A DNA stretch of 64,000 nt from an uncultured Eubacteriales bacterium (GTDB lineage Bacteria; Bacillota; Clostridia; Peptostreptococcales; Anaerovoracaceae). The notes beneath the pieces were generated by a model. The model saw only the letters and a program-made list of their open reading frames with translations, did no database searches and was not told the DNA's origin. Positions 33,350-36,182 of this stretch are shown here, piece after piece. Each line of letters begins with the position of its first letter. Within the stretch, counting starts at the first letter, position 1. Location: contig CACYLW010000002.1 of the NCBI GenBank assembly GCA_902775345.1, positions 116,065-180,064 of the forward strand, read 5' to 3'. Both the position numbers and the translations under genes were made by a program.

Positions 33350-33373
33350 TAGATACAAAGGCACAAATTGTAG

Positions 33374-33379
33374 TATAAT
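33374..33379 (+). promoter_or_regulatory. -10 box upstream of the STAS operon
   Basis: A perfect TATAAT about 75 bases before the STAS start. No good -35 box lies 16-18 bases upstream, so an activator or another sigma factor may be involved. Confidence 0.4.
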
Positions 33380-33399
33380 ATATCGGAATAATTTATCAT

Positions 33400-33426
33400 C
33401 AGCCGGAAGGAAAACTGTTCCGGCTG
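33400..33426 (+). other. Perfect hairpin in the leader of the STAS operon
   Basis: CAGCCGGAA, nine-base loop GGAAAACTG, TTCCGGCTG. The stem has nine perfect pairs and lies between the -10 box and the ribosome site. It is followed by TATATGC, not a T-run, so it may steady the message or bind a regulator, or be a weak end for the upstream gene. Confidence 0.55.
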
Positions 33427-33454
33427 TATATGCAGATTAAGGAGGAAACTGTAT

Positions 33455-33754
33455 ATGCTTGATATCAAGAAAAACCTGGAAGAATCAAGGCTGGAGTTCG
33501 TTCTTGACGGCAGACTTGACACCATTACAGCTCCGCAGCTTGAGGAAGAGGTCAAAGCATCCATCGACGGGATCACAGAACTGATTTTTGACTTCAGCGG
33601 TCTGGCTTATGTCTCCAGCGCCGGCCTCCGTGTGCTTCTGTCAGCGCAGAAAACCATGAACGAAAAGGGCACCATGGTTGTAAGGAACGTTTCGGATGAG
33701 ATCCAGGAGATTTTCGATGTAACCGGATTTTCAGATATTCTGACTATAGAGTAA
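33455..33754 (+). CDS. STAS-domain anti-sigma factor antagonist
   Basis: 99 residues, a single STAS domain of the SpoIIAA/RsbV type. The phosphorylation loop reads LAYVSSAGLRVLL near residues 49-61, with the serine that partner kinases modify in SpoIIAA and RsbV. AAGGAGG lies before the ATG. The next gene, 17 bases on, encodes a protein with both a second STAS domain and an RsbW-type ATPase, so this protein is likely to be that ATPase's substrate in a partner-switching pair. No sigma factor gene is in the window; the final target is unknown. Confidence 0.9.
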   Translation: MLDIKKNLEESRLEFVLDGRLDTITAPQLEEEVKASIDGITELIFDFSGLAYVSSAGLRVLLSAQKTMNEKGTMVVRNVSDEIQEIFDVTGFSDILTIE

Positions 33755-33771
33755 AGGGACCTGTACGGAAG

Positions 33772-35376
33772 ATGAATACTTCTTGGGAAAACGACAAAAT
33801 AACTATCAGACTCGAGGGGCGTATAGATTCGGGCAATGCCGCTGCCGTTGAGAGTGAGATCAGCGATGCGCTGAAAGATCACACTGCTTCAGCAGTAATT
33901 CTTGATGCAGAGGATCTGGAGTATATTTCCAGCGCCGGTCTCAGGATCATTCTCCGGCTCAGGAAAAAGTTTCCTGAACTCAGAATCATCAACGTAAAGT
34001 CCGACGTTTTCGAGGTCTTTGAAATGACCGGATTTACCGAGATGATGACCGTGGAGAAGGCTTACCGCAGGGTTTCGATCGAAGGCTGCGAAGAGATCGG
34101 ACACGGAGCCAACGGAAGTCTTTACCGCATCGACAAGGACAATGTCGTAAAAATCTATAACAATCCTGACGCTCTGGACGATATCCAGCATGAGCGTGAA
34201 GTCGCAAGGCTCGCTCTGATCCTCGGCATACCGACGGCGATCTCTTATGATGTCGTTAAAGTAGGAGACAGCTACGGATCGGTATTTGAGCTTCTGAACG
34301 CGAGATCGTTCTCGAAGATCCTCGGGACTGAGCCGGAAAAACTCGACTGGTGCGTTGATGAGTATGTTGAGATGCTCAAGCGCATCCACAGCACTGTGGT
34401 GCCTGAAGGAAAGCTCCCGGACATGAAGGAGACTGTTCTTTCATGGGCAAGGTTCATGCAGGATTATCTGCCTGAGGAATCCGGCAAAAAACTGCTCGCT
34501 CTTGTCGAAGCGGTGCCGCACGATGATCACATGATACATGGTGATTATCATACAAAGAATCTCGAGCTTCAGGACGATGAGGTACTCCTTATCGACATGG
34601 ACACTCTTGCAGTCGGACATCCGATCTTTGAGCTAGGTTCCATGTTCAACGCCTACAGGGGCTTCTTTGAGCTTGATCACAAAGCAATAGAATCATTCCA
34701 GAGATTCAGCTACGAAACAGCTGAGAAATTCTGGTACAAGACCCTCGCGAAGTATCTCGGCACAGACGATGAGAAAGTTATCCGCAGTGTGGAGGACAAG
34801 GCGCGCATCATCGGCTACACAAGGCTGATCAGAAGGTCTGTAAGACGCGGCGGACTTGAGGATAAAGACCGCAAGGCAGAGATCGATCACTGGACAAAAG
34901 AACTCATAGAGCTGCTTGAGAAGACAGACACGCTTCTGTTCGAGAATGACCTTGAGGACACAAATAAGCACAAGGATCTGGACATAGAGGCTGTTGAGGA
35001 TAATCTTGACGAGGTCATGGCTTATGTGGATGAGAATCTCGAGGCTGTAGGCTGCTCGATGAAAGCTCAGATGCAGATCGATATCGCAGTTGAGGAGATC
35101 TTCGTCAACATCTGCAAATACGCGTATCACCCTGAAAAAGGCAGAGCGGTCGTTCGTGTCGAAGTGTCGGACGATCCGGTACAGGTGAAGATAACGTTTA
35201 TCGACCACGGAAAGCCTTACGATCCGCTCCTGAAGGATGATCCTGATGTGACTCTCTCTGCTGACGAGAGGGAGATCGGCGGACTGGGAATCTTCATGGT
35301 GAAGCAGACCATGGATGCCGTTGAGTATGAATACAAGGACGGGAGCAATATTCTTACACTCGTAAAAAACCTTTGA
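33772..35376 (+). CDS. STAS / APH-like kinase / RsbW-type ATPase fusion protein
   Basis: 534 residues in three parts. Residues 1-95 are a STAS domain with EYISSAGLRIIL near 45. Residues 100-340 are an aminoglycoside-phosphotransferase-like kinase: glycine loop EEIGHGANGSLYRI near 107, VVKIY lysine near 124, the catalytic loop MIHGDYHTKN near 254-263 and the metal motif LIDMD near 273. Residues 400-534 are a HATPase of the RsbW/SpoIIAB type: VEEIFVNICKYAY near 440, IDHGKPYDP near 476 and GGLGIFMVKQ near 503. All active-site residues appear intact. The chain thus holds a phospho-acceptor, a second kinase-like fold and an anti-sigma kinase. It follows the STAS gene by 17 bases and GGAAG precedes the ATG. 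Target and signal are unknown. Confidence 0.9.
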   Translation: MNTSWENDKITIRLEGRIDSGNAAAVESEISDALKDHTASAVILDAEDLEYISSAGLRIILRLRKKFPELRIINVKSDVFEVFEMTGFTEMMTVEKAYRRVSIEGCEEIGHGANGSLYRIDKDNVVKIYNNPDALDDIQHEREVARLALILGIPTAISYDVVKVGDSYGSVFELLNARSFSKILGTEPEKLDWCVDEYVEMLKRIHSTVVPEGKLPDMKETVLSWARFMQDYLPEESGKKLLALVEAVPHDDHMIHGDYHTKNLELQDDEVLLIDMDTLAVGHPIFELGSMFNAYRGFFELDHKAIESFQRFSYETAEKFWYKTLAKYLGTDDEKVIRSVEDKARIIGYTRLIRRSVRRGGLEDKDRKAEIDHWTKELIELLEKTDTLLFENDLEDTNKHKDLDIEAVEDNLDEVMAYVDENLEAVGCSMKAQMQIDIAVEEIFVNICKYAYHPEKGRAVVRVEVSDDPVQVKITFIDHGKPYDPLLKDDPDVTLSADEREIGGLGIFMVKQTMDAVEYEYKDGSNILTLVKNL

Positions 35377-35386
35377 TAAGCAACGT

Positions 35387-35416
35387 TTGACAATCTGATT
35401 CAAGCGGTTAACTAAT
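35387..35416 (+). promoter_or_regulatory. Possible promoter of the 11-mer repeat protein gene
   Basis: A perfect TTGACA at 35387-35392 and ACTAAT at 35411-35416, 18 bases apart. The -10 box is weak. If real, the repeat protein is also made separately from the STAS genes. Confidence 0.4.
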
Positions 35417-35436
35417 ACTTTACAGGAGGTAAAAAG

Positions 35437-36126
35437 ATGGCAGATAAGAAAACAGTCGATAAAGTAAAAGAACTGCTCGGCGGTCATGTATATGCTCCGC
35501 TCAAGGAAGCTGCAGAAAAGTGGCTTGCAGAAGCAGATGAAAAGTACGGCGACAAGTTCGACGACCTGAAGGAAAAGGGCAGCGATGCATGGGACAAGTT
35601 CGGCGAATTTGCTGATAAGTATTCTGAGAAGTCCATCGAAGTCAGCGAAAAGTTTGCCAAGGTAAGCGACAAGGTCGCTGAAAGCGTAGACAAATTCACA
35701 GAGAAGGCTGCTCCTGTTGTAGAAGATCTTAAGGAGAAGGCAGCTCCAAAGATCGAGGAACTCAAGGGCAAGGCAGCTCCGAAGATCGAAGAGCTCAAGG
35801 GCAAGGCTGCTCCTGTAGTTGACAAGGTAACTGAAAACGAGTTTATCAAGCAGCTTAAGGCAGGTATCTCTTCGCTCGACGAAGTCATCGATACATTCAG
35901 CAAGCCTGAGATGAAAGAGATGATGGGCGAGGAAGCTGCTGCGCAGATCAAAGCTCACGCTGAAGCAATGAAAGCTGAGGGCAAAACATTCTGCGACTGC
36001 CCTGCATGCACAAAAGCCAGAGAGATCCTCAAGGATCTCGGAGTAGACCTCGAAGAGCCTGAAGCAGGGGAGCCGGCGGCTGAGGCAGAGGAGCCTGCGG
36101 CTGAGGAGCCAGAAGTAACAGAATAG
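35437..36126 (+). CDS. Amphipathic 11-residue-repeat protein with C-terminal cysteine motif
   Basis: 229 residues, not recognised as a named family. Residues 20-140 are charged helix with repeats of 11 residues resembling apolipoprotein/LEA helices; four of them (EKAAPVVEDLK, EKAAPKIEELK and two GKAAP copies) are nearly identical. Residues 145-180 may form another helix. A CDCPACTKAREIL segment near 188-200 could bind a metal or form disulfides. The tail is an acidic Glu/Ala/Pro stretch. There is no signal peptide or membrane helix. AGGAGG lies before the ATG and a terminator follows. Such helices often bind membranes or protect proteins in stress; lying after the STAS regulators it may be their output or partner. 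This is inference. Confidence 0.85.
   Translation: MADKKTVDKVKELLGGHVYAPLKEAAEKWLAEADEKYGDKFDDLKEKGSDAWDKFGEFADKYSEKSIEVSEKFAKVSDKVAESVDKFTEKAAPVVEDLKEKAAPKIEELKGKAAPKIEELKGKAAPVVDKVTENEFIKQLKAGISSLDEVIDTFSKPEMKEMMGEEAAAQIKAHAEAMKAEGKTFCDCPACTKAREILKDLGVDLEEPEAGEPAAEAEEPAAEEPEVTE
35704..35835 (+). repeat. Four tandem 33-base units in the repeat protein gene
   Basis: Units start at 35704, 35737, 35770 and 35803, each beginning AAGGCWGCTCC and coding for 11 residues. Units two and three differ by only four bases, a sign of recent duplication; unit number may vary between strains. Confidence 0.85.
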
Positions 36127-36149
36127 TTTATTCATTTGAATCGAAGAGA

Positions 36150-36182
36150 CAGTCGCCGCCGCGTGTGGCGGCTGTTTGTTTC
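36150..36182 (+). terminator. Terminator after the 11-mer repeat gene
   Basis: CAGTCGCCGC pairs with GTGGCGGCTG (ten pairs, two G-T) around a five-base loop and is followed by TTTGTTTC. It separates the STAS/repeat unit from the dehydrogenase gene. Confidence 0.8.

Follow-up and report, generated by a model that had tools for sequence, protein, structure and literature searches.

Partner switching has been studied mostly as a means of releasing sigma factors. In the window (the whole 64-kb stretch of DNA that was analysed), a stand-alone STAS protein (STAS1) is followed by a protein that joins a second STAS domain, an APH-like kinase and an RsbW-type ATPase in one chain (FUS), and a search for sigma region 2 across the complete set of contigs placed no sigma factor in the window. 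The question is what a partner switch of this kind would act on. From the domain architecture, the conserved active sites and neighbourhood, the split and fused forms, the genome inventory and the co-occurrence pattern, we consider the chances about even that STAS1 and FUS form the hub of a sigma-free RsbUVW-like partner switch, with membrane transporters as its likely outputs.

Conservation of the locus and its catalytic residues

The first-pass annotation had placed three genes here, and STAS1, FUS and the repeat-protein gene REP were recovered in that order and at those positions, all on the + strand. A scan of named genomes confirmed at least 582 relatives of FUS. The best 80 of these at least 582 were kept as loci, and the locus set is thus biased to close relatives; one of them (L183) was dropped before counting, since our gene calls gave no single three-domain gene there, which left 79. 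Genes were called by our own composition-based caller. G-numbers denote genomes of the family sample, L-numbers the named FUS loci and C-numbers the contigs of the window's genome. The carriers among the best 80 are mostly uncultured rumen or gut MAGs, so the system may be a common unseen control layer in these communities.

STAS1 (33455..33754) is a 99-aa RsbV/SpoIIAA-like protein that matched Pfam STAS (1e-15) and TIGR00377, both above cut-off. Its acceptor serine was assigned to S55 (codon 33617-33619) by alignment to the RsbV and SpoIIAA chains of 6m36 and 1th8, respectively, and the SSAG motif was invariant in 23/23 STAS1 rows. A stand-alone STAS gene lies near FUS in 59/79 loci of the best 80, and in 56/79 it is on the same strand and no more than three genes away, which bears out the proposed linkage of the two genes. 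The three genes are bracketed by a promoter-like site upstream of STAS1 (TAGATA-18-TATAAT, 33350..33379, + strand, 10/12 consensus bases) and by a terminator-like hairpin after REP, found by sequence scan (36155..36172, + strand). The promoter-like site is weak, because the region holds four such sites against a shuffle mean of 3.1; terminator-like sites were somewhat enriched (seven against a shuffle mean of 2.7).

FUS (33772..35376) is a 534-aa STAS-APH-HATPase protein. Its STAS domain (aa 1-97, 33772..34062; Pfam STAS at aa 10-96, 3.2e-15, above cut-off) carries the acceptor serine S54 (codon 33931-33933, by alignment). The APH-like kinase domain (aa 101-393, 34072..34950; Pfam APH at aa 106-296, 8.1e-15) scored 55.7 bits against PF01636 (cut-off 23.2) and belongs to that family, HxD...N and DxD motifs included. 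As had been claimed, the domain retains intact HGDYHTKN and LIDMD motifs, and it has the N-lobe lysine K127. The RsbW/SpoIIAB-type GHKL ATPase domain (aa 398-534, 34963..35373) matched HATPase_c_2 (PF13581) at aa 407-532 (1e-22, above cut-off) and, by profile, the RsbW chain 6m36_A, and its N, G1 and G2 boxes are intact. In an 89-row alignment of FUS, which contains repeats because the loci and the family sample share genomes (L151 = G144, L152 = G113), S53 and S54 of the SSAG motif, the APH catalytic residues K127, H256-G-D258, N263, D275 and D277, and E441, E442, N446, G480, G504 and G506 of the ATPase were found in 89/89 rows, and D478 in 88/89. With at least 582 relatives and near-invariant catalytic and acceptor residues, the three-domain chain is, judged by its sequence, a conserved and apparently active signalling protein.

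A single gene with all three domains was found in 79/80 loci of the best 80, which rules out a chance adjacency or an assembly join. Split forms also occur: in G102, G126, G117 and G046, a STAS-APH gene without the ATPase lies at most two genes from an ATPase-bearing protein of the SpoIIE-phosphatase cluster (the Pfam run covered the G102 protein only). The GHKL ATPase of FUS is expected to be the STAS kinase. Literature searches for a STAS-APH fusion returned nothing.

Genome inventory and the sigma factor

The host genome holds two STAS domains in total, those of STAS1 and FUS. Four SpoIIE phosphatases have the full domain together with Reg_prop, 5TMR-LYT or HAMP regions and are scattered over the genome, and a fifth appears internally deleted. 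Among the best 80, a SpoIIE-type phosphatase is encoded near FUS in 40/79 loci, and one further locus has a phosphatase-ATPase fusion. Above the HATPase_c_2 cut-off the host has only FUS and a MATE-transporter fusion, with two weaker matches below it. With these two HATPase_c_2 proteins and two STAS domains, the set does not make up a stressosome (RsbR/RsbS/RsbT).

The locus resembles the RsbU-RsbV-RsbW and SpoIIE-SpoIIAA-SpoIIAB switches of Bacillus in the position of the STAS acceptor serine, the GHKL serine-kinase-type ATPase with its N, G1 and G2 boxes, and the SpoIIE/PP2C phosphatases; profile matches extended to the solved RsbV, RsbW and SpoIIAA chains (6m36, 1th8). However, the group-3 sigma client of RsbUVW-type systems was not found, and most of the sampled carriers likewise had no detected SigB/F/G client. 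Moreover, the kinase is here fused behind a second STAS domain and an APH kinase, the phosphatases of the window's genome are dispersed, and RsbW-like domains are borne by transporters.

That no sigma factor lies beside the three-domain gene had been noticed before, and for the SigB/F/G class this absence extends to the whole assembly: no such factor was found in the host assembly, which is 90.5% complete, the sole SigBFG match being at the RpoD-like level. The region-2 search hit four places, all on other contigs, namely a 416-aa protein on C7, which is read here as the housekeeping RpoD, ECF-size frames on C4 and C8, and a fragment on C3. In the family sample, to which the SigBFG tallies apply (the 79 named loci lay outside the sigma search), a factor was scored as absent when the best E exceeded 1e-50 or when a match was lacking altogether, as in G105 and G125. 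By this measure, 7/8 genomes with full-length FUS had no SigBFG match beyond the RpoD-like level, or 6/7 without G125, whose absence is uninformative because not even an RpoD-like match was obtained; three of those lacking the factor (G135, G050 and G038) are at least 97% complete. When split forms were included, 13/16 STAS-APH genomes (G027 among them) lacked SigBFG (Fisher 2e-5; the Fisher tests on the 148 sampled genomes take related genomes as independent).

These counts bear on the assumption that the switch is an ordinary one whose sigma client was missed, either because the FUS ATPase holds an ECF sigma factor or because a SigB/F-type factor falls in the tenth that the assembly lacks. 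Two ECF-size frames and a fragment are present in the host, the frame on C8 being some 4 kb away from a gene for a SpoIIE phosphatase, and 3/16 STAS-APH genomes gave a SigBFG match with E < 1e-65 (G144, full-length and over cut-off; G102 and G019, split). Nevertheless, the near-general lack of SigBFG in the full-length genomes speaks against this assumption, and we know of no RsbW protein that holds an ECF sigma factor. We therefore regard a missed sigma client as improbable.

RsbW-like domains on membrane transporters

Two membrane proteins of the host genome carry RsbW-like domains, an SDF-symporter fusion and the MATE fusion. In hhalign, the FUS ATPase profile matched the N terminus of the SDF fusion (prob 97.4, E 1.5e-11) and the C terminus of the MATE fusion (prob 98.5, E 2.7e-15), compared with a prob of 0.1-2.4 for five unrelated profiles; searched against the PDB, the SDF-fusion domain gave no RsbW, only keratin at E 0.03. 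The kinase site of the SDF fusions is dead, the equivalent of N446 being kept in 1/18 and the G1 aspartate in 0/18. The MATE-fused domain retains part of the ATP site and could therefore be a kinase, not a receiver. SDF symporters canonically carry an NMDGT-type motif, which is missing from the host SDF fusion; as in most relatives, a YMP motif is found instead, and the SDF part may thus not be a working symporter. Literature searches for RsbW-like domains on transporters, and one on Mogibacterium STAS proteins, found nothing.

In the co-occurrence sample of 148 related genomes, whose lists were compiled by hand from search tables, 58 had homologues of the system. G056 and G101 were left out of this count, as their match was to an N-terminal membrane region (verified for G056 only, whose protein we take to be HD-GYP-like), and G044 and G113 were kept in. 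The SDF fusion was found in 17/148 genomes, and all 17 were among the 58 (Fisher 2e-8). Furthermore, SigBFG was missing in 13/17 genomes with the SDF fusion compared with 34/131 others (Fisher 7e-5). Both associations held without the window's genus (2e-7 and 4e-4). In the family sample, 3/8 genomes with full-length FUS were without an SDF fusion. Among the best 80 loci, a transporter fusion (SDF or MATE) lies near FUS in 17/79, the MATE fusion in 10/79. L135 was rejected as a MATE fusion, since no MATE protein is encoded there and the ATPase belongs to a phosphatase fusion. In G046, an RsbW-like stretch was seen behind ABC-transporter sequence; the frame looks chimeric and was left out of the counts.

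The proposed switch would then work as follows. The FUS ATPase would phosphorylate STAS1 on its SSAG serine, and perhaps also the STAS domain of FUS itself, and several scattered membrane SpoIIE-type phosphatases with differing sensor regions would strip the phosphate. Unphosphorylated STAS1 would dock on the RsbW-like domains of the SDF-symporter-like protein, with its dead kinase site, and of the MATE transporter, and docking would alter the activity of these membrane proteins. A more far-reaching proposal, which we put forward tentatively and hold somewhat less probable than the hub itself, is that, in Clostridia of the rumen and gut, partner switching has left transcription. The STAS-APH-ATPase kinase would charge a STAS protein and many sensor phosphatases would discharge it; this protein would dock directly on dead RsbW-like domains of SDF-type and MATE transporters, and possibly of an amino-acid ABC importer, and gate the transporters at the post-translational level, and an APH kinase linked to nucleotides would serve as a further input. 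If the RsbW-like domains are receivers, they would be a concrete non-transcriptional output for partner switching. The scheme, if true, would also provide a route from many membrane sensors to the direct setting of uptake or efflux, and a natural example of a kinase domain turned receiver.

Alternatively, STAS1 itself may be the output and bind some other protein, as has been proposed for SypA, RbaV and HmpV, the transporter fusions being parallel, separately regulated kinases or sensors. SypA/SypE, RbaV/RbaW, HmpUVW and BtrUVW are STAS systems whose targets are given as unknown in a review (PMC8256260). They share with the present locus a phosphorylated STAS protein, a kinase, often a PP2C phosphatase and an output other than a known sigma factor, but section 6 of the review describes neither a STAS-APH fusion nor a transporter-borne RsbW-like domain for them. 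It also fits a separate target of STAS1 that a transporter fusion was missing from the retrieved flanks of 62/79 loci of the best 80 (the flanks are short in 44/79). However, the system and the transporter RsbW-like domains co-occur and repeatedly lie side by side, and a separate target seems to us unlikely.

For docking on transporters, the SLC26/SulP family (DauA) is comparable in that STAS is coupled to transport. In that family, however, the STAS domain lies inside the transporter, whereas in the present system STAS1 is a soluble protein and the transporter carries the RsbW-like partner; neither of the host's two STAS domains is on an anion transporter, so the system does not belong to SulP/SLC26. 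DauA-DctA was rejected as a precedent for STAS-SDF docking, because the isolated DauA STAS domain of E. coli did not bind DctA and binding was through transmembrane parts (PMC5703999).

The APH domain and a possible nucleotide link

With its full kinase motifs, the APH domain of FUS resembles PF01636 and TIGR02172 proteins; it differs from them in being embedded between STAS and ATPase domains, and TIGR02172, the best NCBIfam match of FUS, was reached at 108 bits, below its cut-off of 228.2, which places FUS outside that family. The same kind of APH domain is fused to a SpoT-like HD_4 domain, without any STAS, in G018, G064 and G042 (by Pfam) and in G056 (by similarity), which argues against STAS as its obligatory substrate. 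Among the best 80 loci, an HD_4 gene lies near FUS in 7/79 and a PHP phosphoesterase gene in 46/79. Among NCBIfam entries, the PHP protein came closest to 3',5'-nucleoside bisphosphate phosphatase, but with 119.9 bits it fell far short of the cut-off of 400. These associations point to a nucleotide or alarmone link for the STAS-APH half of FUS, which may be a second catalytic input or an output.

FUS may accordingly be imagined as a small-molecule or nucleotide kinase, controlled by the STAS and ATPase domains on either side and tied to alarmone turnover, which would be compatible with the other readings. Its invariant APH active site, the HD_4 fusions and the PHP neighbours would agree with such a role. 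However, neither an HD_4 nor a PHP gene is adjacent in the window's own locus, one of the seven HD_4 matches (L172) is a RelA/SpoT-like protein of 745 aa that is encoded on the opposite strand, and the PHP adjacency may be mere synteny; we consider the role doubtful. A second APH match in the host (contig C4) was rejected as a part of the system, being a separate 586-aa protein, presumably LicC/LicA-like.

The repeat protein

The first-pass annotation had also suggested a chain whose two kinases phosphorylate a pair of STAS domains, the repeat protein providing the output at a membrane or stress surface. The two kinase sites and the serines of both STAS domains are indeed conserved, and REP directly follows FUS in all seven closest relatives among the best 80 (L105-L111) and in G135; G082, of the same genus, has neither gene. 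However, REP adjoins FUS in these 7/79 loci of the best 80, all closest kin, and was not found beside FUS in the other 72, and the APH domain also occurs in chains without STAS. REP is rejected as a core component beyond the closest relatives, and we judge this model very unlikely. The refuting conditions that came with the first-pass annotation, parts without conservation and a lost ATP site, did not hold when examined on sequence: the STAS link and the kinase ATP-site residues are conserved, and the adjacency of the repeat gene is not.

REP itself (35437..36126, 229 aa) consists of an 11-mer amphipathic repeat (aa 26-135) and a C-terminal domain (aa 130-203) with a CDCPAC motif, as delimited by lag-11 self-identity and Pfam. 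It had been described as apolipoprotein/LEA-like. The 11-mer repeat stood, with a lag-11 self-identity of 0.38 over aa 26-135 that was equalled by 0/5000 shuffles and a helical moment that was likewise reached by 0/5000. The apolipoprotein match did not, as PF01442 scored 54.9 bits against a Pfam cut-off of 90; REP was rejected both as an apolipoprotein and as a glutaredoxin, the matches being under the Pfam cut-offs. The PDB matches of REP to apolipoproteins are read as a likeness driven by the repeat.

Organization of the locus

Three genes were located on the forward strand in the order STAS1, FUS and REP, and the first-pass annotation was correct in this respect. STAS1 (33455-33754) is a stand-alone STAS protein of 99 aa, FUS (33772-35376) is a STAS-APH-HATPase protein of 534 aa, and REP (35437-36126), 3' of FUS, is an 11-mer repeat protein of 229 aa. 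The STAS domain of STAS1 and the STAS, APH and ATPase domains of FUS each scored above the curated Pfam cut-offs. The spacers are 17 bases (STAS1-FUS) and 60 bases (FUS-REP), and a promoter-like site 5' of STAS1 and a terminator-like hairpin 3' of REP would fit one transcription unit; in a scan of the region, promoter-like sites scored no better than shuffles. The gene after REP, by our own reading a 2-hydroxyacid dehydrogenase, probably starts beyond the hairpin.

Conservation of FUS

The three-domain architecture was conserved across genomes. Full-length FUS was present in 8 of the 148 sampled genomes of the window's family (G000, G135, G050, G125 (twice), G091, G144, G113 and G038), and a scan of named genomes matched at least 598 stretches, at least 582 of them encoding relatives. 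The best 80 of these relatives were kept for locus study and came mostly from Bacillota MAGs of rumen or gut origin; among the matches listed, the closest were labelled Mogibacterium sp. or uncultured Clostridiales, Mogibacterium being a genus of Anaerovoracaceae. Binning errors may explain odd labels among the MAGs, for example Spirochaetales (L158). The single bin G125 held two full-length copies and one STAS-APH gene (L036, L039, L072).

Over 89 aligned full-length rows, some genomes being included twice, K127, H256, G257, D258, N263, D275 and D277 of the APH kinase, E441, E442, N446, G480, G504 and G506 of the RsbW/SpoIIAB-type ATPase, and S53-S54 of the STAS domain were invariant, and D478 was kept in 88. 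At the sequence level, loss of the kinase ATP site, which the first-pass annotation had named as a refuting outcome, was not found. By alignment to RsbV and SpoIIAA, S54 of FUS and S55 of STAS1 correspond to the acceptor serine, the residue that is phosphorylated in those two proteins. FUS is a real, conserved family. STAS-APH proteins lacking the ATPase occurred in eight other sampled genomes (G102, G126, G117, G046, G019, G057, G067 and G027), and in the first four the ATPase was carried by a SpoIIE-type phosphatase at most two genes from STAS-APH, so that these split forms tie the parts of the system together.

Genes accompanying FUS

Neighbours were counted over 79 loci (from the best 80 of at least 582; L183 left out), 44 of which had short flanks. 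STAS1 was found in 59 loci. Forty loci had a gene for a SpoIIE phosphatase, and one more had a fusion of phosphatase and ATPase. A PHP gene occurred in 46, directly downstream of FUS in 38, and an HD_4 gene in 7. Transporter-like proteins bearing an RsbW-like domain were present in 17, as an SDF fusion (7) or a MATE fusion (10). REP was near FUS in only 7 (L105-L111). Of the two genes whose adjacency to FUS the first-pass annotation had asked about, STAS1 was retained in most loci and REP in these 7. The PHP phosphoesterase of L152 (4880-5740) and 45 further loci is distantly like 3',5'-nucleoside bisphosphate phosphatase, and L122 has two stand-alone STAS genes, one upstream and one directly downstream of FUS.

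Among the 148 genomes, full-size REP was confined to the window's genus, of which G082 lacked FUS and likewise REP. The REP C-terminal part (aa 130-203; 35824-36045) recurred in 111- to 133-aa proteins of seven genomes from other genera (L211-L217), with the motif CDCPAC in six and CDCSAC in one; L214, the only one tested, had no Pfam match.

The APH domain

Both its score and its motifs assign the APH domain to PF01636, and some kinase activity is predicted with good confidence. Its nearest solved chain by sequence was hygromycin-B 4-O-kinase (1.6e-6), a likeness that does not give the substrate. Besides its fusion to STAS, four of the sampled genomes have the domain joined to a SpoT-like HD_4 domain, which replaces STAS (L049:3052-4527, L051:6538-8010, L052:6699-8174 and L067:7965-9638; three by Pfam, that of G056 by similarity). 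HD_4 or PHP phosphoesterase genes also often lay 3' of FUS in the 79 loci. From these two observations, a link to nucleotides or alarmones is a fair guess and no more.

Partner-switch components of the window genome

The window genome encodes two STAS domains, both in this locus. PF13581 exceeded its cut-off in FUS and the MATE fusion, with two weaker matches under it, and SpoIIE did so at eight places. Of the five strongest, four gave phosphatases that have a full domain with Reg_prop, 5TMR-LYT or HAMP regions; the fifth, a dCache SpoIIE phosphatase (L098:3854-5761, contig C5), apparently lacks the middle of its catalytic domain. Sigma region 2 was detected at four places: a protein interpreted as RpoD, two frames of ECF size and one fragment. 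A search for SigB/F/G-class sigma factors gave a single match (8e-42), in the range that was interpreted as RpoD-like over the 148 genomes.

Given family knowledge and the intact residues, the FUS ATPase very probably phosphorylates STAS, and the SpoIIE proteins are predicted, with equal confidence, to dephosphorylate it. The system is a partner switch that seems to be without its former sigma factor, accompanied by transporters bearing its putative docking domain.

RsbW-like domains on transporters

The SDF fusion (764 aa; C5:52344-54635, equal to L104:6345-8636) begins with a membrane region, followed by an RsbW-like domain, which is degenerate, and an SDF domain of divergent sequence. In the MATE fusion (L094:7750-9492, contig C2), a transporter of the MATE family ends in an HATPase_c_2 domain that keeps part of the ATP site. 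In profile-profile comparison, the FUS ATPase profile matched both the N terminus of the SDF fusion (probability 97.4, E 1.5e-11) and the C terminus of the MATE fusion (probability 98.5, E 2.7e-15), and five unrelated profiles reached 0.1-2.4. When the SDF-fusion domain was compared by sequence with the PDB, RsbW was not among the hits. In the SDF type, N446 was kept in 1/18 and the G1 aspartate in 0/18, and the G2 glycines were not among the commonest residues; in the MATE type both N446 and the G1 aspartate were kept in 11/12, with cysteine replacing the G1 glycine in 11/12. Hence the SDF-type domain looks like a pure receiver, whereas the MATE-type domain might still bind ATP. Canonical SDF proteins carry an NMDGT motif, at the position of which most of the 18 FUS-linked rows had YMP; clear membership of SDF was seen for other fusions, for instance L235 of the FUS-carrying G113 (2e-87).

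The SDF fusion occurred in 17 of the 148 genomes, all within the 58 having homologues of FUS, STAS or the FUS ATPase (Fisher 2e-8, a guide only, as are all these p-values, the genomes being related and not independent), and in 5 of the 8 with full-length FUS. A SigB/F/G-class match above the RpoD-like level was absent from 13/17 SDF-fusion genomes versus 34/131 others. Both associations held without the window's genus, and the latter also without G105 and G125.

These transporter-borne domains are putative receivers of STAS1, a reading we hold tentatively, at slightly under even odds. The combined proposal, a STAS1/FUS partner switch without sigma and with transporters as outputs, we consider evenly balanced, its rivals not being mutually exclusive. 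The interest of FUS lies in the apparently sigma-less switch and the transporters, a partly different reason from the repeat protein and the two kinases on two STAS domains put forward in the first-pass annotation. Among the matches listed in the open-access literature (PMC), no title concerned a protein joining STAS, APH and ATPase domains, or transporters that carry RsbW-like domains. A membrane region similar to that of the SDF fusion is found at the start of an HD-GYP-like protein of G056 (L201). In the frame L233:1441-2865 (G046), an RsbW-like stretch comes after solute-binding and ABC-ATPase pieces, with a join that looks chimeric.
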